Below, piece after piece: positions 27,057 to 37,322 of a stretch of DNA of 37,360 nt. The number at the start of each line of letters is the position of its first letter. Position 1 is the stretch's first letter. The stretch is from the NCBI GenBank assembly GCA_024698555.1, contig JAILRI010000173.1, positions 1-37,360 of the forward strand, given 5' to 3'. The DNA comes from Lachnospiraceae bacterium (GTDB lineage Bacteria; Bacillota; Clostridia; Lachnospirales; Lachnospiraceae). The position numbers were made by a program, and so were the translations under genes. A model generated the notes under the pieces. It saw only the letters and a list, made by a program, of their open reading frames with translations. It was not told the DNA's origin and did no database searches.

Positions 27057-27743
27057 TCATATCCCGTATTTTATTTTGACCCTTTTAAGCTTTTTACCGA
27101 AAGGGTCAGCCAGCAGAAACAGAAAAACGAAATTTGATACCGCATACAGGATTGTGTGCGGTATTGCTGATATTACGGAAGCAATATACAGCTGAGCCTC
27201 AAACCCCGAAGCGTACCAGAGCACTGTCCAGATATCCATGATCAGGGAAAAGATTATTCCACTGATCACTCCGTATATAAGCAGCAAGGGTCTGCTTTTT
27301 TTCAGGGACCCGGCAAAAAGACCGGCAAACCACCCTATAAGGCCCCAGGCAAGCATCTGGAACGGAGTCCACGGCCCCTGGCCGAAATAAAAATTGGAGA
27401 TCAGTGCAGACAGCGAACCCACCAGAAATCCGGCTTCACTCCCCAGATACATGGCGGTGATGACGGTAAGAGCCGTGATCGGCTTGAAAAAGGGGATAAA
27501 ACGCCCCAGGACACTTAAAGCGGTCATGACCGCCACCAGAATAAGCCGGCCTGTGCCTGTAGCTTTTTTTTCGAAACCGGCGGTAAAGAGCAGCAATGAA
27601 AAAACAGCTACGGAAAGAGAGATCAATAAATGCTTCTGCTCGTCAAAGAGCAATACTCCGGCAACGGCCGCGGCAGGTATCAAAACGAAGGGGATAAGTA
27701 TTTTCAGTATATTTCTTAAATTCCTGTTATGTATGATCATCAT
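27057..27743 (-). CDS. ECF transporter substrate-binding (S) component
   Basis: This 228-residue membrane protein has about six to seven helices and S-component hallmarks: LGRFIPFFKPITALTVITAMYLG, EAGFLVGSLSALISN and FYFGQGPWTPFQMLAWGLIGW. S-components bind a vitamin or other small ligand and dock on an EcfT-EcfAA' module. The exact ligand is not evident; its neighbourhood, with DUF4430 and toroid proteins plus EcfT and EcfA on the opposite strand, suggests a corrinoid-like ligand. The first of two adjacent ATGs has only a weak ribosome binding site, and the best promoter lies so close that the message could be almost leaderless. Confidence 0.82.
   Translation of the reverse strand: MMIIHNRNLRNILKILIPFVLIPAAAVAGVLLFDEQKHLLISLSVAVFSLLLFTAGFEKKATGTGRLILVAVMTALSVLGRFIPFFKPITALTVITAMYLGSEAGFLVGSLSALISNFYFGQGPWTPFQMLAWGLIGWFAGLFAGSLKKSRPLLLIYGVISGIIFSLIMDIWTVLWYASGFEAQLYIASVISAIPHTILYAVSNFVFLFLLADPFGKKLKRVKIKYGI
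27078..27107. other. Inverted repeat at the ends of convergent ftsY and the ECF S gene
   Basis: GACCCTTT (27078-27085) and AAAGGGTC (27100-27107) enclose 14 nt and lie within the S-gene 3' coding end, 25 nt after the ftsY stop. There is no T run after the stem on either strand, so it is a weak terminator candidate, but it is the only hairpin I found there. Confidence 0.3.
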
Positions 27744-27749
27744 GCTAAT

Positions 27750-27779
27750 ACTCTATCAGAGACGATAAGAATGTGTCAA
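27750..27779 (-). promoter_or_regulatory. Possible promoter of the ECF S-component gene
   Basis: On the minus strand TTGACA (plus 27774-27779) is followed after 18 nt by TAGAGT (plus 27750-27755). The -35 is perfect, the -10 mediocre. The start would fall at or next to the ATG (27743). The 13 bases covering the -35 and its upstream T run are identical to those of the 2072-2100 promoter. Confidence 0.45.
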
Positions 27780-27798
27780 GAAAAACACATGACATTCT
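27768..27798. promoter_or_regulatory. Operator-like inverted repeat between divergent genes
   Basis: AGAATG-TG-TCA (27768-27778) and TGACATTCT (27790-27798) are inverted copies apart from a 2-nt bulge, 11 nt apart. The repeat covers the -35 of the minus-strand ECF S promoter and lies upstream of the plus-strand gene at 27890, so one regulator could control both. Which protein binds is unknown. Confidence 0.4.
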
Positions 27799-27807
27799 CG
27801 AAATATG

Positions 27808-27836
27808 TTGATATTTGATGATTAAAATGATAGTAT
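27808..27836 (+). promoter_or_regulatory. Possible promoter of the gene at 27890
   Basis: TTGATA (27808-27813), 17 nt, TAGTAT (27831-27836); a TATTAT three bases further on is an alternative -10. The leader would be about 45 nt. Confidence 0.4.
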
Positions 27837-27889
27837 TATGTAAGTGTATTGTAAACAGAAATTATATTCAATTCGTGGAGGAAGAACAT

Positions 27890-28522
27890 ATGCAGACTGA
27901 TAAGATAGTAGTGGCCGCAGGCGGAAACGGAAGAGAAAGCGCATTCAGGGAAGCTCAGAAATTTGCTGACTACATTGGTCTTGACAATAAAGCCGCGCAG
28001 CGCTTAAGACTGCTCACTGAAGAAACTTTAGGGATGATGGAGGCTATAACCGGGAATTTTTCGGCAAAGTACTGGATCGAAAGCGCTGAAGACGGAAAAT
28101 ATAAAATGCATCTAACCGCTGCGACCATCATGGATTTTGACAAAAAACAGCAGTTGATAGATGTTTCATCAGGTAAGAAAAATGCCGCTGCCAAAGGTAT
28201 CATGGGCAAGATCGGACAGATCATCGAGAACAGCCTGTACAGCATCGATAAGGCTGGCAGCCTTTCTGCCGAGTACGGAGGAACACCCCTTATGTACGGC
28301 GAGATGGGCATGTGTGATATGAGCGGTATGGAGTCTTCCACTTATTTCTGGTCTCTGCAGAAATACAGGGACAATATCTCCAGATACGAACAGGATAATG
28401 AGGCTTATAAGGAAGCCTGGGATGAGCTCGAAAAATCAATAGTGGCCAATATCGCGGATGATATCAGCGTAGCGGTAAAGGGCGATACCGTGGATATGAT
28501 CATAACAAAGACGTATCGCTGA
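27890..28522 (+). CDS. Conserved Lachnospiraceae-type protein, possibly GHKL ATPase-like
   Basis: This is a 210-residue soluble protein without signal peptide or membrane segment. The segment RLRLLTEETLGMMEAITGNF resembles the N-box helix of the GHKL ATPase fold used by RsbW/SpoIIAB anti-sigma factors, and ELEKSIVANIADDISVAVKG resembles the end of such domains, but the glycine-rich G-boxes are not clear. An ATP-binding or anti-sigma role is a guess; it may be a degenerate member. The ATG at 27890 has a strong GGAGGAA; a TTG/ATG further upstream (27815) has none. It is divergent from the ECF S gene and precedes the DUF4430 gene by 87 nt. Confidence 0.6.
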   Translation: MQTDKIVVAAGGNGRESAFREAQKFADYIGLDNKAAQRLRLLTEETLGMMEAITGNFSAKYWIESAEDGKYKMHLTAATIMDFDKKQQLIDVSSGKKNAAAKGIMGKIGQIIENSLYSIDKAGSLSAEYGGTPLMYGEMGMCDMSGMESSTYFWSLQKYRDNISRYEQDNEAYKEAWDELEKSIVANIADDISVAVKGDTVDMIITKTYR

Positions 28523-28548
28523 TCAGGTCTGTGACGGAAAAATGCCGC

Positions 28549-28577
28549 TTGTTTTTGAATGGCGGTTAATGTATAAT
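28549..28577 (+). promoter_or_regulatory. Promoter of the secreted DUF4430 gene
   Basis: TTGTTT (28549-28554), 17 nt, TATAAT (28572-28577). The leader would be only about 26 nt to the ATG at 28610, with AGGAGG at 28595-28600. That leaves no room for a riboswitch in the transcript. Confidence 0.65.
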
Positions 28578-28609
28578 GACCATATATTATTTCCAGGAGG
28601 TGTTTGATC

Positions 28610-29527
28610 ATGAGATCAAAATTTAACAGGTTCTTTGCGCTGATGCTTGCATTTGCTTTAGCTTTTGGCGGATTCGCGGGCTTCGGCAAAACAACAGCGG
28701 CAAATGCCGCGGACAGTGTCAAGGTGTATGTTACTATAGCCGATGAGATCGGTCTTAAGGTAGTTAAACAGCAGTCGGTTACGGTTACAGACATCAATGA
28801 TGACGGAGTACTTACTTACATCGATGCCCTTTACTGCGCGCATGAGAAATACTTTAAAGGCGGAGCTGCTGCAGGATTTGCTTACAGCATAGGCACTACT
28901 ATGGATGGCGACCCCCTTCCCTGGGTTACGCTTCTGTGGGGAATCGATATTGGCGGCAGCTACGGGTTCTATAAGAACAATGCTTCCATAGCCAGTGTTG
29001 CCGACGGCATGATCGAAAACGGCGATTATATTGATGCATACGTATACAGGGATCTTGAGTCCTGGTCTGATACTTATTCCAACTTTGCCAAGAGAAGAGT
29101 TGTTGCCGCGAAGAACAAGGCTGTCAAGCTTAAAGTTTATTATATGGATCGCGATGAGAACTGGATGGAAACACCCGCACCTCTTGCCAACGCCAATATC
29201 CGTATCAATAACAAGGAAACCGACTATGTGACCGATGAGAACGGTATCGTCAAGGTTAAATTCGACAAGGCCGGAAGCTATATGGTAACTGCGACCAACA
29301 GCTACAAGCTGATCGTTGATCCTATCTGCCTGGTTTTTGTAAGACCTGACATCGGCGAAGTGATCACGGTTAAAAATATCAACTATACCGTTACCAAAGC
29401 CGGCAAGCCTGACGGCAAGAAGGGCGTGGTTACCTACAGCGCTGAACTGAATCCCAAGAATACCAAGGATGTTCCCAAGACTGTAGATTTCGGCGGTATC
29501 ACCTACAAGGTAAAGAAGGTTAAATAA
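28610..29527 (+). CDS. Secreted DUF4430-type surface protein
   Basis: This 305-residue exported protein has a signal peptide (about 1-34, ending ANAA before DSVKV). A DUF4430-like beta-grasp domain (about 36-160) follows, with SIGTTMDGDPLPWVTLLWGI and GSYGFYKNNASIASVADGMI in place of the usual WxYxVNG segment. Next come a small Ig-like or Big_1-like domain (ANANIRINNKETDYVTDENG) and a C-terminal ITVKNINYTVTKAG...GGITYKV segment of the kind found in Lachnospiraceae surface proteins. DUF4430 is related to the C-terminal domain of transcobalamin. ATG 28610 suits AGGAGG better than a TTG at 28604. Two nt separate it from the toroid gene. Ligand unproven. Confidence 0.75.
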   Translation: MRSKFNRFFALMLAFALAFGGFAGFGKTTAANAADSVKVYVTIADEIGLKVVKQQSVTVTDINDDGVLTYIDALYCAHEKYFKGGAAAGFAYSIGTTMDGDPLPWVTLLWGIDIGGSYGFYKNNASIASVADGMIENGDYIDAYVYRDLESWSDTYSNFAKRRVVAAKNKAVKLKVYYMDRDENWMETPAPLANANIRINNKETDYVTDENGIVKVKFDKAGSYMVTATNSYKLIVDPICLVFVRPDIGEVITVKNINYTVTKAGKPDGKKGVVTYSAELNPKNTKDVPKTVDFGGITYKVKKVK

Positions 29528-29529
29528 TT

Positions 29530-31545
29530 TTGAAAAAGGTTTTTTTACCGATAATCAGCTTATTTATGATCATTATCCTTTGCGGAAGCGTGAAAACTTC
29601 CGCAAAGGATAATTCTTATGTTAAGACCTGCCGTGAATATACGGATGGGATCATTGAGCATGAAATGAGCCTTACCGGTACCGACAGTATAGAAGCCTGG
29701 ATTTCAAAAGCTCTGGCAGAGGACATCGGCGGCACGGCGGAATGGTATATGCTGGGGCTTTTGCAGTATCCTTACGCTTCAGGAAAAGAAGCTGCCGGGA
29801 TCGAAAAAGGCGCAGGTAAGTACAGAAGCGCGCTTGAGAATTATGTCGCTTCAAAAGATATCAAAGGCGGTTCAGTGAGGCTTAAGTTCGCCCTTCTTCT
29901 TATTGCGTCCGGCTCCGACAGCGCGTTTATCAGTGAAGTACTTGATGATGGGACTATTGGCAGTCAGGGGATCATGAGCTATGTCTTCGGACTGCATATT
30001 CTGAACAACGGTTATGAGAGCGACAGCATAAGCCTTGAAAATCTACTGACAAACCTTATGGAAAAACAGCATGAGGATGGAGGCTGGTCGATCTCGGGCG
30101 GATACGGTGATGTTGATGTGACCGCAATGACTCTTACCGCGCTGGCTCCTTATTCTGACCCGGAAACCTGTAAGCAAAGGGGACTGGATGCGGACCTTAT
30201 AAGTGAATCCATATCGGCAGGAATTAACTTCCTTTCGGAAAAACAGCTTGAAGACGGTGATTACCAAAGCTACGGTGCCCGTAACGCCGAAAGCACCGCA
30301 CAGGTTATTACGGCTCTTTCGGCTTTGGGGATAGATTGCGCCGGAGATTCAAGATTTATCAAAAACGGGAACACTCCCATAGATGGTCTTTCTCTGTATC
30401 GAAAGAATAATGGCAGTTTTTCGCATAAGCTTGATGATTCAGAAAACGCGACAGCCACAGTACAGACTTTTTATTCCCTGGTGGCATACGAACGGTTTGC
30501 AAGCGGTAAAGGATCGCTGTTCCTGATAAAGAATCCGGCCGTGAAAGACGGGGAAATCGAAGATTCCGGTGAAATCCCAGGAACGAAAGAAACCGGGGGA
30601 ATTACTGAAGAAGGTAAAGCGGAGGAAACGAAAGAAATCCCTGAAACGGGAGAAACTGAAGAAAGCGAAGAAAGCGAAAAAACCGAAGAAACCGTGGGAA
30701 TAACTGAAGAAGGTGAAACGGAAGAAACAAAAGAAATCCCTGAAGCGGGAGAAACCGAGGATACCGGGGAAATCCCTGAAATAGAAGAAAACGAAGAAAC
30801 CGGGAAAACAGGAAAAACACAGGAAACAGGAAAAACACGGGAAACAGATAAGGCTAAGATGTCCGCGAAAGCAGAAAATAACGGAAACAAACCGCTTGGA
30901 TACAAGCTTTACGCGATCATTGCGATACTCGCGGTTTCGGCTTTTGTATGCGCGCTGCTTGCGCTCCTTAAAAAACACAGGAAGAATATCCTGTTTACTC
31001 TGATAGTTACCGCCGCCGCGATATTGTTCGTTATTTTTACCGATTTTGCTTCGACAAAAGATTATTACGGCGGGGCGGAACGAAACAACTACAGCCCGGA
31101 CGGAATGATAAACGTCCAAAATGATAATGTACCTGATCCAGAGGCGGACGGAATAAAAGTCGATATAAGCTCCTGTAAGGTTTCCATGTCCATCAGGTGT
31201 GATATAATTAAAGACCGGACGGATAATAAATATATCCCTGCTGACGGGTGCATTCTGGATGATACGGATTTTGAGATACATGACGGCGATACGGCATATG
31301 ATGTACTGGTAAGAGCTGCCAGAGAGTACGGGATCAGCGTAGACCATAAAGGAAGCGGTGAAATGATCTATATCAGCGGGATCAATTACCTGTATGAACT
31401 GGATTACGGCGATCTGTCAGGGTGGGTCTACAAGGTGAACGGCAAGCTCCCGTCGGTCGGATGCGCAGCATATAAGCTTGAACCGCAGGACCGCGTGGAA
31501 TGGTGCTATACATTGGATCTGGGCAATGATACTTTTGGCAACTGA
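29530..31545 (+). CDS. Membrane-tethered alpha-toroid + DUF4430 protein (transcobalamin-like plan)
   Basis: This 671-residue protein has a signal peptide (1-25) and an alpha-alpha toroid domain (about 45-330) with prenyltransferase/squalene-cyclase-type repeats (EKQHEDGGWSI, SEKQLEDGDYQSYG, LYRKNNGSFSH). A Glu/Thr-rich linker (about 340-445) leads to two helices (459-480 and 487-504) with KKHRKN between them, then a DUF4430 domain (about 545-668, GWVYKVNGKLPSVGCAAYKL). The positive loop places both large domains outside. No cyclase DxDD motif is seen, so enzyme activity is unlikely. Toroid followed by DUF4430 is the plan of intrinsic factor and transcobalamin. It starts at TTG with AGAAGG in the preceding gene's end. 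EcfT follows after 79 nt. Corrinoid binding is inference. Confidence 0.72.
   Translation: MKKVFLPIISLFMIIILCGSVKTSAKDNSYVKTCREYTDGIIEHEMSLTGTDSIEAWISKALAEDIGGTAEWYMLGLLQYPYASGKEAAGIEKGAGKYRSALENYVASKDIKGGSVRLKFALLLIASGSDSAFISEVLDDGTIGSQGIMSYVFGLHILNNGYESDSISLENLLTNLMEKQHEDGGWSISGGYGDVDVTAMTLTALAPYSDPETCKQRGLDADLISESISAGINFLSEKQLEDGDYQSYGARNAESTAQVITALSALGIDCAGDSRFIKNGNTPIDGLSLYRKNNGSFSHKLDDSENATATVQTFYSLVAYERFASGKGSLFLIKNPAVKDGEIEDSGEIPGTKETGGITEEGKAEETKEIPETGETEESEESEKTEETVGITEEGETEETKEIPEAGETEDTGEIPEIEENEETGKTGKTQETGKTRETDKAKMSAKAENNGNKPLGYKLYAIIAILAVSAFVCALLALLKKHRKNILFTLIVTAAAILFVIFTDFASTKDYYGGAERNNYSPDGMINVQNDNVPDPEADGIKVDISSCKVSMSIRCDIIKDRTDNKYIPADGCILDDTDFEIHDGDTAYDVLVRAAREYGISVDHKGSGEMIYISGINYLYELDYGDLSGWVYKVNGKLPSVGCAAYKLEPQDRVEWCYTLDLGNDTFGN
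30601..30759 (+). repeat. Imperfect 99-bp repeat encoding the Glu/Thr-rich linker
   Basis: The segment starting ITEEGKAEETKEIPETGETE (30601) recurs as ITEEGETEETKEIPEAGETE 99 bp later (30700), with shorter GKT and EET repeats after it. It is a low-complexity linker between the toroid and the membrane helices; repeat number may vary between strains. Confidence 0.8.
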
Positions 31546-31624
31546 TCAGGAACCTCCGGCGCATAAGCAGGGTATTTCGTATAAAATATAATGGTTTATG
31601 GATAATTAGACTGCAGGAGATAAT

Positions 31625-32503
31625 ATGCGTGCATTTGAGAACCTGAATCCTCTGACGGTTGCGTTTTACTACGCTGTGACACTGTCAATAGCCATGTTTA
31701 CCATGAATCCGATCCTGCACGTGGCCGGATTTATCGGGGGAATATTGCAGTTCGCTGTCTTTAACCGGAAAAAGACAACGGGTACGCATTTATATTTTTT
31801 CATCATAGGGAGCATTCTGGCTCTGGTACGTCCTGTATTTTCACATAACGGGGTTACTGTACTGTTTGTGGTCAATGATAATCCGATAACGCTGGAATCC
31901 TTTATTTTCGGAATAAATTCCGCAGTGATGGTGGTTGGGGTATTATATCTGTTCAGAGTTATTTCTGTCATTTTCACCTCGGACAGATTCCTGTATCTTT
32001 TTGGCGCGTTTTCTCCAAAGACTGCTCTGGTTATGTCAGCCGGATTAAGATTCATACCACTCTTAAGAAGAAGATACCGCATGATAGGTATGGCTCAGAC
32101 TGTCATCGGGATCAATAAGGACGATAACGTGATCGACCGGATGGGAGCCGCTGCGAAGACTATGTCCGCTACCGTCACATGGGGGCTTGAGAACGGGATA
32201 ATCACTGCTGAAAGCATGGCGGCCAGATATTTCGGCACGGGAAAAAGAAGCAGATACGCGTTGTTTAAGTTCGGCAGAGAAGACCTTTATGTGGTGATGA
32301 CCGTAGCCGTACTTTCCGTAATTCCGGTGGTATGTCTGTTCAAGGGTGACTTTGATACCGTATTTTACCCTGAATTTTTGATGAACGAACCGGATATCCG
32401 TACGGTTCTCGGATATCTCTGCTATGGTGTGATCATTTTGATTCCTGTTATTATGAAAGTTCTGGAGAATTACAGATGGAAATTCTTAAGGTCGAGGATC
32501 TGA
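31625..32503 (+). CDS. ecfT: ECF transporter transmembrane component EcfT
   Basis: EcfT is the membrane scaffold that couples ATP hydrolysis by EcfA-A' to the S-component. The 292-residue product has several membrane helices at both ends, a cytoplasmic coupling region (LRFIPLLRRRYRMIGMAQTV onward), and the family pattern NGIITAESMAARYFGTGKRS, in which MAARYFG replaces the commoner MxARGYG. CAGGAGA precedes the ATG. It overlaps the ATPase gene by 28 nt, so the two are coupled. It is probably used by the S-component at 27057-27743. Confidence 0.88.
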   Translation: MRAFENLNPLTVAFYYAVTLSIAMFTMNPILHVAGFIGGILQFAVFNRKKTTGTHLYFFIIGSILALVRPVFSHNGVTVLFVVNDNPITLESFIFGINSAVMVVGVLYLFRVISVIFTSDRFLYLFGAFSPKTALVMSAGLRFIPLLRRRYRMIGMAQTVIGINKDDNVIDRMGAAAKTMSATVTWGLENGIITAESMAARYFGTGKRSRYALFKFGREDLYVVMTVAVLSVIPVVCLFKGDFDTVFYPEFLMNEPDIRTVLGYLCYGVIILIPVIMKVLENYRWKFLRSRI

Positions 32504-34122
32504 CGTACTGTTATCCCGAATGCAGTCAGCCGGCAGTCAGGAACATATATTTTTCGGTGGATGAGGGTGAAGTGTTATGCATCTGCGGTGAGACCGGAAG
32601 CGGAAAATCCACGTTGCTGAGGCTTTTAAAAAAAGAGCTGGTCATGAACGGCACCGTCTCGGGTAAGATAAGGTATAGCGATGATACTGTAAAGATCGGC
32701 TATGTAGGGCAGAATCCCGGTGAACAGATAGTTACCGACAAAGTGTGGCATGAGCTGGCATTCGGAATGGAAAACCTGGGTTTTTCACAGGAAAAAATGG
32801 CTTTGAGAATGGCAGAGATCTCCGCGTATTTCGGGATCGAAGAGTGGTTTGACCGTAATACGGATGAGCTTTCCGGAGGTCAGCAGCAATTGCTCAATCT
32901 GGCATCGGTTATGGCCATAGAGCCGGATATACTGATCCCGGACGAGCCGGCTTCACGTCTTGATCCGGTTTCGGCAGACATGTTCTGGAATTCGGTCTGG
33001 AGACTGCGCAGGGATCTGGCTCTCACTGTGATCCTGGCTGAACACAGATTAGAAGATATTATTCCGGCATGCGACAGGCTTATGGTTTTGAAGGACGGAT
33101 GTATAGCCATGCTGGATACTCCTTCCGCAGCTGTACGTTCCATCGATCCTGGCGATAAACTCTATAACGCGCTTCCTGCTGCGTACAGGCTGTTTGACGG
33201 GCTTTGGGGCAAAAAAGAACGGCATCCTTCAGAAACGATACTGACCGTTTCTGAGGGAAGAAAAAAATTAAGGGAATATATAAATGAAAACGGTAGCTGT
33301 ACAGAAAATGAAGATCATATCCTGAAGAGATCGGATACAGCTTTAGAAAGACAAGAAAACGCACTTGAATTTGAGCATGTATATTTCAGATATCAGAAGG
33401 ATATGCCCGACGTTCTGACGGACTTTAACCTGAAGGTTAAAAAAGGCATGATCTACTGCCTGATGGGCGGCAACGGAGCCGGGAAGACCACTGCTGCGCT
33501 GGTGGCGGCAGGGCTGTGTAAACCTTACAGCGGAAATGTCAGAGTTTTTGACAGACCGTTAAAGAGCTATAAAAATCAGAGCTTATATAACGGGTGCCTT
33601 ACCATGCTGCCTCAGGAAGCAGAGAATCTGTTTCTTTACGATTCGGTCGCTGAAGAATTAAAAAGCATGGATTACGATCCCGCAAGTAATCCGATAAGCA
33701 TACCCGGGCGGCTTTATGAGCGGCATCCCTATGACCTTTCGGGCGGTGAAAGGCAGCTTCTGGCACTTGCGAAGGTGATGCAGACCCGGCCCAAGCTTCT
33801 TCTGCTCGATGAACCGACTAAAGGACTGGATGCTTCGGTAAGGACTCAGTTTGCCGATACTCTGCTCAGACTGAAGGACGGCGGGATAACCGGTCTTGTC
33901 ATAACACATGATGTGGAATTTGCGGCTGCGGTAGCCGACAGATGTGTGATGTGTTTTAAAGGGAGTATCGTTGCGGACAGTACGCCCGAAAACTTTTTTG
34001 CCGGAAACAGATTCTATACTACTGCCGCCGCAAGGATCGGGAGAGGAATATGCGAGGGTTATCCGACTTTAGAAGGACTGCTAAGGACGCTGGACAGACG
34101 TTTGCCGGGAAATCATGAATAA
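32476..34122 (+). CDS. ECF transporter ATPase, fused EcfA-EcfA'
   Basis: This 548-residue protein has two ABC ATPase domains in one chain. Domain 1 (about 1-225): Walker A GETGSGKST (Lys44), Q-loop GQNP, signature LSGGQQQ (132-138), Walker B ILIPDEPASRLDP with Asp156-Glu157, switch His190. Domain 2 (about 296-520): Walker A GGNGAGKTT (Lys337), signature LSGGERQ (420-426), Walker B LLLLDEPTKGLD with Asp444-Glu445, switch His477. Both sites look catalytic, though a proline sits just before the first Walker B aspartate, where a leucine is usual. A polar linker joins the domains. It starts inside ecfT. Confidence 0.92.
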   Translation: MEILKVEDLTYCYPECSQPAVRNIYFSVDEGEVLCICGETGSGKSTLLRLLKKELVMNGTVSGKIRYSDDTVKIGYVGQNPGEQIVTDKVWHELAFGMENLGFSQEKMALRMAEISAYFGIEEWFDRNTDELSGGQQQLLNLASVMAIEPDILIPDEPASRLDPVSADMFWNSVWRLRRDLALTVILAEHRLEDIIPACDRLMVLKDGCIAMLDTPSAAVRSIDPGDKLYNALPAAYRLFDGLWGKKERHPSETILTVSEGRKKLREYINENGSCTENEDHILKRSDTALERQENALEFEHVYFRYQKDMPDVLTDFNLKVKKGMIYCLMGGNGAGKTTAALVAAGLCKPYSGNVRVFDRPLKSYKNQSLYNGCLTMLPQEAENLFLYDSVAEELKSMDYDPASNPISIPGRLYERHPYDLSGGERQLLALAKVMQTRPKLLLLDEPTKGLDASVRTQFADTLLRLKDGGITGLVITHDVEFAAAVADRCVMCFKGSIVADSTPENFFAGNRFYTTAAARIGRGICEGYPTLEGLLRTLDRRLPGNHE

Positions 34123-34156: not shown

Positions 34157-35125
34157 ATGGAAAACTGCGAAGAAAAAAAGACATTAGGCAAAGAGATCAT
34201 GATCGGACGCACACGGTTCAGTTCCAATGTGCTCATGGCTCCTCTGGCCGGATATACCTGTTTTCCGTTCAGGCTCATGGTAAAAAGACTGGGCGCGGGA
34301 AGCGCTTATACAGAAATGGTCAGTGCCGATGCCCTCAAATATAACGACAGGGCAACCTCCAGGCTGTTGTTTACGGATGAACGTGAAGAACTGAAATGTG
34401 TACAGCTTCTCGGAGCGATCCCGGCTGTATTTGAAAGAGCCGCCAAAAGCGAAAGGCTCGCTAAGTTTGATGTTATAGATATTAATATGGGATGCCCGGT
34501 ACCTAATGTGGTAAAATCCGGTGAAGGATGCGCTCTGATGGATGATATCGGGAGAGCTTCCGCCATCATCGAGGCTGTAAAAAGAAGCGGAAAAACCGTT
34601 TCGGTAAAATGCCGCCTCGGGATGAACCGGAAAAAGATCGTTATCGAAGAATTCGCCAGAATGTGCGAGGGATCCGGCGCAGATATGATCACTATACACG
34701 GAAGGACCAGGGATATGATGTATGATGGCGAACCGCTTTACGAATATATAAAGCTCGCAAAGCAGGCAGTAAGCATCCCGGTGTTTGCCAACGGCGGGAT
34801 AGATTCCGGGGAAAAAGCGCTTTTAACTATGGAAAAAACAGGCGCGGACGGGATCATGCTGGCCAGATACGGATTTGAAAATCCATTGATATTTCCGCAA
34901 CTTTCAGGAACAAAATGTTCTGATACCAAGTACAGCCTGATCAGCGAACAGCTTGATATCGCCGGGGAATGCTATGATGAGCTGTTTGTGCTTACATATA
35001 TAAAAAAACTGGCTTCGTATTTTATGAAAAAGCTTCCCGGAACAAAACAGAAAAAACAGGAGCTTTTTAAGTGCGGAAGCATTACACAGTTAAAGCCCCT
35101 GCTTTGGGATATATTTGGGAGTTGA
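34157..35125 (+). CDS. dus: tRNA-dihydrouridine synthase
   Basis: Dus reduces uridines in the D-loop of tRNA using FMN and NADPH. The 322-residue product has the FMN barrel start SSNVLMAPLAGYTCFPFRLM, the catalytic cysteine motif DINMGCPVPNVVKSGEGCALM, then KCRLGM, ITIHGRTRDMMYDGEPLYEY and IPVFANGGIDS. The usual GRAxxGNPW segment reads MLARYGFENPLIF, so it is a divergent member. The start is uncertain: AAGGAG (34134-34139) is 17 nt before the ATG at 34157, and ATG 34199 (MIGRTRFSSNV) would match typical family lengths equally well. The LRR gene starts 5 nt after the stop. Confidence 0.88.
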   Translation: MENCEEKKTLGKEIMIGRTRFSSNVLMAPLAGYTCFPFRLMVKRLGAGSAYTEMVSADALKYNDRATSRLLFTDEREELKCVQLLGAIPAVFERAAKSERLAKFDVIDINMGCPVPNVVKSGEGCALMDDIGRASAIIEAVKRSGKTVSVKCRLGMNRKKIVIEEFARMCEGSGADMITIHGRTRDMMYDGEPLYEYIKLAKQAVSIPVFANGGIDSGEKALLTMEKTGADGIMLARYGFENPLIFPQLSGTKCSDTKYSLISEQLDIAGECYDELFVLTYIKKLASYFMKKLPGTKQKKQELFKCGSITQLKPLLWDIFGS

Positions 35126-35129
35126 TAAC

Positions 35130-37322
35130 ATGTTGATACAGGAACGGTTTGAAATAGAAAACGGGGTTTTGAAAGCCTACACGGGAACGGACGCGTCTGT
35201 TTCCATTCCCGAAGGGGTAACGGAGATTGGTGAAAATGTATTTAAGGGCATGTCCTGGCTTCAAAATATATCGCTTCCCCGTTCTTTGAAAAAAATCGGG
35301 GCATCAGCGTTTAAAGGGTGCAGAAAGCTTAAAGAAATGGATTTCCCCGATGGTCTTACCGAAGTGGGCGAGTATGCTTTTCACAGATGCCATGATCTGG
35401 TAGAGCTTGTTTTTCCCGAGTCGGTCACAAAGGTCGGCGGACATGCGTTCCTGTATTGTGATCATCTGACAAGGGTGGTCTTAGAAGGTCCCAAACATCT
35501 TGAAAAGGCCGCATTTTCACATAATCTCTCGCTTCGTGAAGTAAGGCTTAATAAAGAACTGGACGATTCGAACTTCAATGACGAAGTATTTGAAGGATGT
35601 GTACTCCTTGAAAGGATAGTACTGTCGGGGAAAGCTTTTGAAATCAGTAATCTCATAGAGGCGATGGATTCGCGCAGCGCATATCCCCGGATCATCAAGT
35701 CCATTGCCCAAAGCGTATTTCATTCGCTTCATATAGAAGACCGGGTTTTGCAAAGCTTCAACATCAATCTGAAAACGGTATCGCTTCCCGAGGGCATCAC
35801 GCAGATCGGAAAAGGCTGCTTTTTTGATAAAAAGGGAATAGTACGCCTGATCCTGCCCGAAAGCTTAAAAACCATAAAAGCCAATGCATTTTTAAACTGC
35901 ACCGGTCTGGAAGAGATCACTGTTCAAAATGAGGAGCTGGAGCTTGACGATAAGGCTTTTCGGGGATGCTGTAACCTGAAGGCGGTACAGCTTTTCGGAA
36001 ATACATATCTTCTTGAGGATGAGTCGGATAATGAGCTGGTAAACAGAATCAGGGAGCAGGTATTAGGTGATTTTTATATCAGCGGACGCATACTCTTAAG
36101 GTATTTGGGAAATGAGGAGCAGATCCGGATCCCGAAGGAAGTTGAGATCATAGGTGAACGGTGCTTTTTCGGCAATGAGAGGTTAAAATCCGTAACCTGT
36201 CCGGGACGCCTTCTCGAGATACGTGAACAGGCTTTTGCCGGATGTGTCGCTCTTCAAAACGTAGTTTTGCCCGACAGTCTGAAAAGGATCGAAAGGGAAG
36301 CATTTGCAGAGTGCAAAAAGCTGCTTAAGATAAATCTTCCCGATACAATGGAATACATCGGGGAATATGCCTTCAGACGATGCTTTGCTCTGCCGCTTTT
36401 TGAAAAAAGACCTGAAGCTTCGATAATTCATCCCTACGCTTTTTACAAGGGCGCAAATGATATCCTTCCGCATAGGGAAGAAAGCAAGATCAACGTTGTC
36501 AGCTGCGACCAAAGTGTTAGTTCCACGGACGGTTATGAATGCGATTTTACAAAAAACGGATTTATCAGGCCTTATGCGCATATAAACAGTACGGATATCA
36601 GAAGTCTGAAGCTTACTGGAGTAAAAAGCATCGGAGAATTTGCGTTTTCGGCATGTTCCGGTCTGGAAGAGATCGCGATCGATTCGCCGGAATGCATGAT
36701 AGGGCATGAGGCATTCTGCGGATGTCCCGATTTAAAAAGAGTGGTCCTGAATGTTAAGGAGCTTGGAGAAGGAATATTCTCTTACTGCAGAAATCTTGAA
36801 GAGGCTGTTATTTCCGGAGTATCGGTTCTTCCGGCGAAAAGCTTCGCAGGGTGCAGTTCACTGAAAAGCATCGAAATAAAGGATCTTAGGGAAATAGGTT
36901 CGAGATGCTTTGACGAATGTATCTATTTGGAATATTTTGATCTTTCCACGGTCAAACTGATAGGAGAACGGGCTTTTGAACGGTGCGAGAGTCTGAAAGA
37001 GGTTAAACTGTATAATACCGAATGCGCGTATCATGCGTTTGCCGACTGCTCATCCTTGAAGCACGTGGAGCTCTCGCGGGAAACGATCCTTAAAAGCCGG
37101 GTTTTTACCGGATGCACACAGATCGAAAGTATAGGATTTGAAGGCCATAAATATGAGTTTTCCTGTTTTTCCGACTGTTTAAATCACACAGGCAATCATT
37201 ACCCTGTACAGGTCAGGGAAACGATCGCTTCGATCTGGTCATGCTTTGAGATACGTGACTTAAAAAAACTGACAGGATATGCTCAGGATGCCACCGTGAT
37301 CACGATCCCGCAGGATATATAG
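35130..37322 (+). CDS. Large leucine-rich repeat (LRR_5/BspA-type) protein, cut by a TAG
   Basis: The open frame encodes 730 residues of LRR_5 repeats (consensus like IPEGVTEIGENVFKGMxxLxxIxLP) and has no signal peptide or membrane segment. A larger module recurs: FEIENGVLKAYTGTDASVSI at the start, LHIEDRVLQSFNINLKTVSL (about residue 205), FYISGRILLRYLGNEEQIRI (about 315) and FEIRDLKKLTGYAQDATVIT at the end. The last copy is interrupted by TAG 37320-37322 after IPQDI, and the same frame continues EIGQDVFREHVR, completing the repeat. So the stop is probably a nonsense mutation or an error, and the true gene runs past the window. ATG 35130 follows GGGAG. It is transcribed with dus. Ligand and location are unknown. 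Confidence 0.8.
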   Translation: MLIQERFEIENGVLKAYTGTDASVSIPEGVTEIGENVFKGMSWLQNISLPRSLKKIGASAFKGCRKLKEMDFPDGLTEVGEYAFHRCHDLVELVFPESVTKVGGHAFLYCDHLTRVVLEGPKHLEKAAFSHNLSLREVRLNKELDDSNFNDEVFEGCVLLERIVLSGKAFEISNLIEAMDSRSAYPRIIKSIAQSVFHSLHIEDRVLQSFNINLKTVSLPEGITQIGKGCFFDKKGIVRLILPESLKTIKANAFLNCTGLEEITVQNEELELDDKAFRGCCNLKAVQLFGNTYLLEDESDNELVNRIREQVLGDFYISGRILLRYLGNEEQIRIPKEVEIIGERCFFGNERLKSVTCPGRLLEIREQAFAGCVALQNVVLPDSLKRIEREAFAECKKLLKINLPDTMEYIGEYAFRRCFALPLFEKRPEASIIHPYAFYKGANDILPHREESKINVVSCDQSVSSTDGYECDFTKNGFIRPYAHINSTDIRSLKLTGVKSIGEFAFSACSGLEEIAIDSPECMIGHEAFCGCPDLKRVVLNVKELGEGIFSYCRNLEEAVISGVSVLPAKSFAGCSSLKSIEIKDLREIGSRCFDECIYLEYFDLSTVKLIGERAFERCESLKEVKLYNTECAYHAFADCSSLKHVELSRETILKSRVFTGCTQIESIGFEGHKYEFSCFSDCLNHTGNHYPVQVRETIASIWSCFEIRDLKKLTGYAQDATVITIPQDI

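Follow-up and report, generated by a model that had tools for sequence, protein, structure and literature searches.

Bacterial proteins that fuse an alpha/alpha toroid to an SLBB domain were described in 2007 by Burroughs et al. (PMC1796856), who reported them as surface-located and encoded in operons with CbiO- and CbiQ-like genes. According to the accessible part of that paper, a second exported SLBB protein is often present in the operon, the hosts usually lack key B12 synthesis enzymes, and both B12 scavenging by such proteins and their transfer to animals were predicted. A further relevant system, as described in the accessible text on it, is ECF-CbrT of Lactobacillus delbrueckii (PDB 6FNP), an energy-coupling factor (ECF) transporter that imports cobalamin and cobinamide (PMC5997447). 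Here we describe a candidate transporter locus at positions 27057–34122 of the 37,360-nucleotide Lachnospiraceae bacterium contig JAILRI010000173.1 (this whole stretch is called the window below), which encodes an S-component, a T-component and a fused A-A' ATPase together with two predicted exported proteins. The locus is real and well conserved, very probably corrinoid-specific, and a good member of a predicted and apparently untested kind.

As the central idea of capture has been in print since 2007 (PMC1796856, accessible part), the locus itself is unsurprising to readers of that work, yet it opens a standing question to direct testing. What is added here is the CbrT-type S-component, the riboswitch link, the hairpin architecture and the host context. 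A literature search, which did not extend to most subscription papers or to any preprints, found no experimental test of B12 uptake by bacterial proteins of the DUF4430 type.

ECF components and exported proteins of the locus

The S-component (228 residues; 27057–27743, minus strand) was recognized by Pfam ECF families and by a family profile, A5, built from 17 S-components. The best PDB chain for this profile was that of CbrT (6fnp_A, E-value 3.6e-23), followed at a distance by the riboflavin protein RibU (2.1e-6) and by 4hzu_S (8e-5). The closest solved S-component to the family is thus a corrinoid transporter and not one specific for an unrelated ligand. The T-component (292 residues; 31625–32503, plus strand) was assigned with family profile A8, which found EcfT at 1.3e-14 (5d3m_D and entries with an identical sequence, including 6fnp). 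Its gene is overlapped by that of the A-A' ATPase (548 residues; 32476–34122, plus strand), in which Pfam ABC_tran matched two stretches, one for each ABC domain (2.9e-47), and the ECF ATPase model TIGR04520 matched at 3.9e-84, with 282 bits falling under its cut-off of 315. These matches bear out the original prediction of a full ECF set with S on the minus strand and T and a fused A-A' on the plus strand.

The kinship to ECF-CbrT therefore extends to both the S-component and EcfT. In contrast, CbrT uses an ECF module that is common to other S-components, as stated in the accessible text (PMC5997447), whereas the S-component of the window has its own T and A-A'. It is also about 50 residues longer than CbrT at the N-terminus and is accompanied by exported partners.

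The ATPase pair and the EcfT-type permease lie directly 3' of the gene for the second predicted exported protein (671 residues; 29530–31545, plus strand), an arrangement that is conserved. This protein consists of a signal-like segment, an alpha/alpha toroid (approximately residues 27–329; 29608–30516), an acidic linker, a two-helix membrane hairpin and a DUF4430 domain. The two membrane segments (residues 462–480 and 486–504; 30913–31041) were assigned by hydropathy and correspond to helices 457–479 and 484–503 of the predicted model. DUF4430, a transcobalamin-like SLBB beta-grasp domain (PF14478; 31285–31512), scored 64.4 bits in the genome search and 60.4 bits on the protein itself (2.3e-16, against a cut-off of 23.8), which confirmed the fusion of a DUF4430/SLBB domain with a toroid. 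The NCBIfam membrane protein family SCO2321 (NF053823) also matched weakly (2e-7), with its best stretch on part of the toroid, but the 30.2 bits are far under the 300-bit cut-off of the model.

The animal B12 carriers of the transcobalamin group are soluble proteins whose two domains are joined directly, and to our knowledge transcobalamin, intrinsic factor and haptocorrin have no membrane hairpin. No match to these proteins was found at the level of sequence profiles. Structural comparison, based on a low-confidence model, placed haptocorrin, intrinsic factor and transcobalamin in the first 12 rows for the DUF4430 domain, which superposed on the beta domain of these carriers, in line with the claimed kinship of DUF4430 and transcobalamin. 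For the toroid, 2pmv appeared at rank 12 in Foldseek with a weak E-value of 0.71, and another comparison gave generic toroid rows. The transcobalamin-like domain order that had been claimed was thus upheld as far as the toroid precedes the beta-grasp domain. It did not hold for the connection between the two, since in the window protein they are separated by the acidic linker and two membrane segments.

The first predicted exported protein, D1 (about 305 residues; 28610–29527, plus strand), has a hydrophobic N-terminus, and its ATG lies behind AGGAGG. At its N-terminal side is a domain of unknown family that bears a DxDxDG-like motif, followed by a weak CarboxypepD_reg/Ig-like stretch. The original prediction had given both exported proteins DUF4430-type domains, and this was confirmed for the 671-residue protein; in D1, domain searches found no DUF4430 match. 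It is plausible, by analogy, that D1 holds a diverged DUF4430, because the gene at that place carries this domain in two relatives (L037, 4.8e-13; L062, 1.6e-15). Homologues of D1 are encoded 5' of the toroid gene in L003, L004, L035 and L036 and within the riboswitch operons of L043 and L050. By eye, the copies of L003 and L004 have a C-terminal tail resembling a sortase anchor, made up of SPETG or SPDTG, hydrophobic residues and lysines, and the Pfam anchor model scored the homologue of L036 above and that of L035 below its cut-off. Unlike some of these copies, D1 of the window has no sortase-like anchor tail.

The locus shares with the systems of Burroughs et al. the toroid and DUF4430/SLBB domains, a predicted surface location, a second exported protein, the adjoining ECF-type ATPase and permease, and the predicted role (PMC1796856). 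It differs in having its two domains split by the linker and hairpin, A-A' fused, S on the opposite strand, and a D1 with no SLBB/DUF4430 match. In addition, the accessible part of that paper names neither an S-component nor a riboswitch.

Conservation of the neighborhood and a proposed capture step

The 671-residue protein was matched at 1e-10 in 33 genomes, the window's own included, of a sample of 150 drawn from the Lachnospiraceae and not representing the whole family. We compared 43 loci, namely the window, two from a contig scan, 39 from the family genomes and one on a further contig of the window's genome. The four features DUF4430, T, A-A' and S occurred together in 31 of these, as conservation of the neighborhood would lead one to expect, and the toroid was also present in 25 of the 31. 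At L004 and at L036, the latter being congeneric with the window, D1, the toroid-DUF4430 protein, T, A-A' and S are encoded in that order on a single strand. Based on these two loci, the reversed S gene of the window looks like the result of a local rearrangement.

A wider sample was provided by 249 genomes of the phylum, 76 of which matched this S-component at 1e-12; DUF4430 was present in 73 of the 75 that remain when the own genome is excluded. The S matches comprised 82 listed places, of which 79 were used; the own genome was set aside, as were a 52-residue fragment in G328 and, in G375, the second of two overlapping fragments. Of the 79, 71 were longer (at least 170 residues) and eight shorter. 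For at least 62 of the 71 longer matches, DUF4430 was encoded no more than 20 kb away.

We consider it likely that the locus imports a corrinoid (B12 or something closely related, for example cobinamide), with the exported proteins involved in some way. Direct capture by an exported protein and hand-over to S is a more specific proposal that we favor to a lesser degree. The toroid and DUF4430 would both lie outside the cell, joined via the membrane hairpin, and would shut around the corrinoid in the manner of the alpha and beta domains of transcobalamin. The CbrT-type S-component would receive the captured corrinoid, and ATP hydrolysis by A-A' with T would then drive it across the membrane for release inside, where the host would spend it in a cobalamin-dependent methionine synthase. 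For the broadest form of this proposal, in which a membrane-tethered bacterial transcobalamin would clamp the corrinoid and pass it to a dedicated CbrT-type S-component across much of the phylum, we regard the case as evenly balanced.

An alternative, which we think unlikely although it is the strongest of those considered, is that the locus imports a corrinoid with no hand-over, S binding its ligand alone like CbrT and the toroid/DUF4430 proteins serving as anchors, stores or decoys. ECF-CbrT of L. delbrueckii moves cobalamin, and no exported partner is mentioned in the accessible text (PMC5997447). In addition, the surface proteins of relatives can be huge and carry cell-wall repeats, as does one of 1597 residues with choline-binding repeats at L054. 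This alternative does not, however, sit easily with the tight coupling of DUF4430 and S in both samples described above, which suggests a direct role for the exported protein.

The S-component of ECF transporters is usually taken as the binding protein. If capture and hand-over do occur, a capture step outside the cell would be added to what ECF importers do, and a large bacterial group would gain a B12 system that is hidden in annotation as DUF4430 and generic ECF parts. The membrane-tethered clamp protein would be a living bacterial counterpart of intrinsic factor, whose origin could then be tested on a bacterial protein.

Riboswitch link, host context and ligand

Searches for the cobalamin riboswitch (RF00174) gave 43 matches in 24 of the 33 family genomes. 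Twenty-two of these, in 21 genomes, lay inside or at most 4 kb from the 39 fetched loci, which sum to 669,056 of the approximately 90 million bases in the 33 genomes. The same-strand genes downstream included genes of the system for 21 of the 22 (the gap at L068 being only partly fetched), the exception being L056. In the phylum sample, at least 56 of the 71 longer S matches were preceded by a same-strand riboswitch at a distance of up to 20 kb. This number is made up of 29 matches and 27 more from a retest of 37 genomes, in which 31 rows on relevant contigs were picked by eye; the 27 riboswitches added sit 3.7–15.7 kb from S. The other 15 comprise ten that were retested, two in genomes with no such riboswitch (G198 and G305) and three outside the retest (two in G397 and one in G212). 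Among the matches listed, 37 of 150 riboswitches lay in this same-strand interval upstream of S, compared to 0.6 expected under an assumed mean genome size.

The host context is similar in direction. In the own draft genome the one B12-binding protein is part of a methionine synthase, MetH, at a contig end, with the pterin-binding and both B12-binding domains. Searches of this draft for CbiD, a FecCD/BtuC-type permease and MetE matched none, absences that are soft given 94% completeness and 7.85% contamination of the assembly. CbiD, one marker of B12 synthesis, was absent from 28 of the 33 family genomes, the own one included, and most of them should therefore not build the corrin ring. Together, the CbrT-type S-component, the riboswitch link in relatives, the host context and the structural ranking from the low-confidence DUF4430 model support the corrinoid ligand of the original prediction and make corrinoid transport by the locus very likely.

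One result weighs against a corrinoid in the window itself: no cobalamin riboswitch was found in the window, in its own genome (G000) or in its closest kin, G134 and G039. The kin differ in B12 context, G134 having MetE and one FecCD protein, and G039 having neither MetE nor CbiD and a FecCD match only under the cut-off. If the ligand had changed in the window's small clade, for instance to a different tetrapyrrole or to some small molecule of an unrelated kind, the lack of a riboswitch there would be accounted for. Among the eight short S matches of the phylum sample, DUF4430 was adjacent in at least seven and a riboswitch lay upstream of none among the matches listed, and on account of such pairs DUF4430 may not be bound to B12 everywhere. 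They form a second DUF4430-S type, perhaps with another ligand. The S tree, however, placed the window S in a supported clade of ten (98/98) that holds two riboswitch-linked S-components, the riboswitch label taking six changes on the tree, and the window S shares 52% identity with its riboswitch-linked counterpart of L037. A cobalamin enzyme is also present in the host, whose draft yielded no other B12 route, and we consider a ligand switch improbable. As the window S nests with riboswitch-linked members, the simplest reading is that the riboswitch was lost in the window's lineage.

Import of cobalt is very improbable: cobalamin riboswitches control cobalt transporters too, cobalt and B12 not being separable by riboswitch control alone according to the accessible part of one study (PMC3766115), and the halves of A-A' match cobalt-type ECF ATPase models under their cut-offs, but S matches CbrT, CbiM gave no match in the Pfam and NCBIfam searches of the window proteins or in the PDB search with the S profile, CbiD is missing from most of the family genomes, and an ion would be hard to square with large DUF4430/toroid proteins.

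Variant loci and neighboring genes

A second DUF4430 protein is encoded in the own genome on a 4.6 kb contig, G000:C35 (L074:2529–3438). It has 136 residues (PF14478, 5.4e-14) and is followed by a short S, beside which T and A-A' are absent. In seven loci (L041, L046, L047, L048, L053, L061 and L070) S is fused to A-A' in one frame of 818–983 residues, and a second T-like gene follows S at L043:5219–6795, L045:2368–3923 and L050:630–2277. Very large toroid proteins are encoded in riboswitch-led operons at L050:7916–18064 (3382 residues), L041:2564–10381 (2605 residues) and L054:1805–6598, the last being the 1597-residue protein mentioned above, which also carries Big_2 and Listeria-Bacteroides repeats.

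Several relatives have a trio of genes for a MoxR-type AAA ATPase, a DUF58-like and a transglutaminase-like protein in line with the DUF4430/toroid genes (L054:14667–19244, L055:2432–6551, L057:10063–14181 and L068:12013–16638). The trio also occurs at L056:5402–9843, beside a toroid gene on the opposite strand, and in part at L044:1–2964. Three of these trios lie directly under a cobalamin riboswitch, and those in riboswitch operons may build the surface assembly; judged by titles and the start of abstracts, a literature search gave nothing linking the trio to cobalamin.

Between S and D1 the window contains a gene for a protein of about 210 residues and unknown family (27884–28522, plus strand), which Pfam and NCBIfam searches left with no match up to an E-value of 1 and which had no relative at the 42 other loci at the threshold used. 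This gene is kept outside the proposed system. Translations read by eye indicated that the S gene is convergent with a neighboring FtsY-like gene, that a Dus-like gene lies 3' of A-A', and that a leucine-rich-repeat-like protein of 735 residues is encoded downstream at 35115–37322 on the plus strand.

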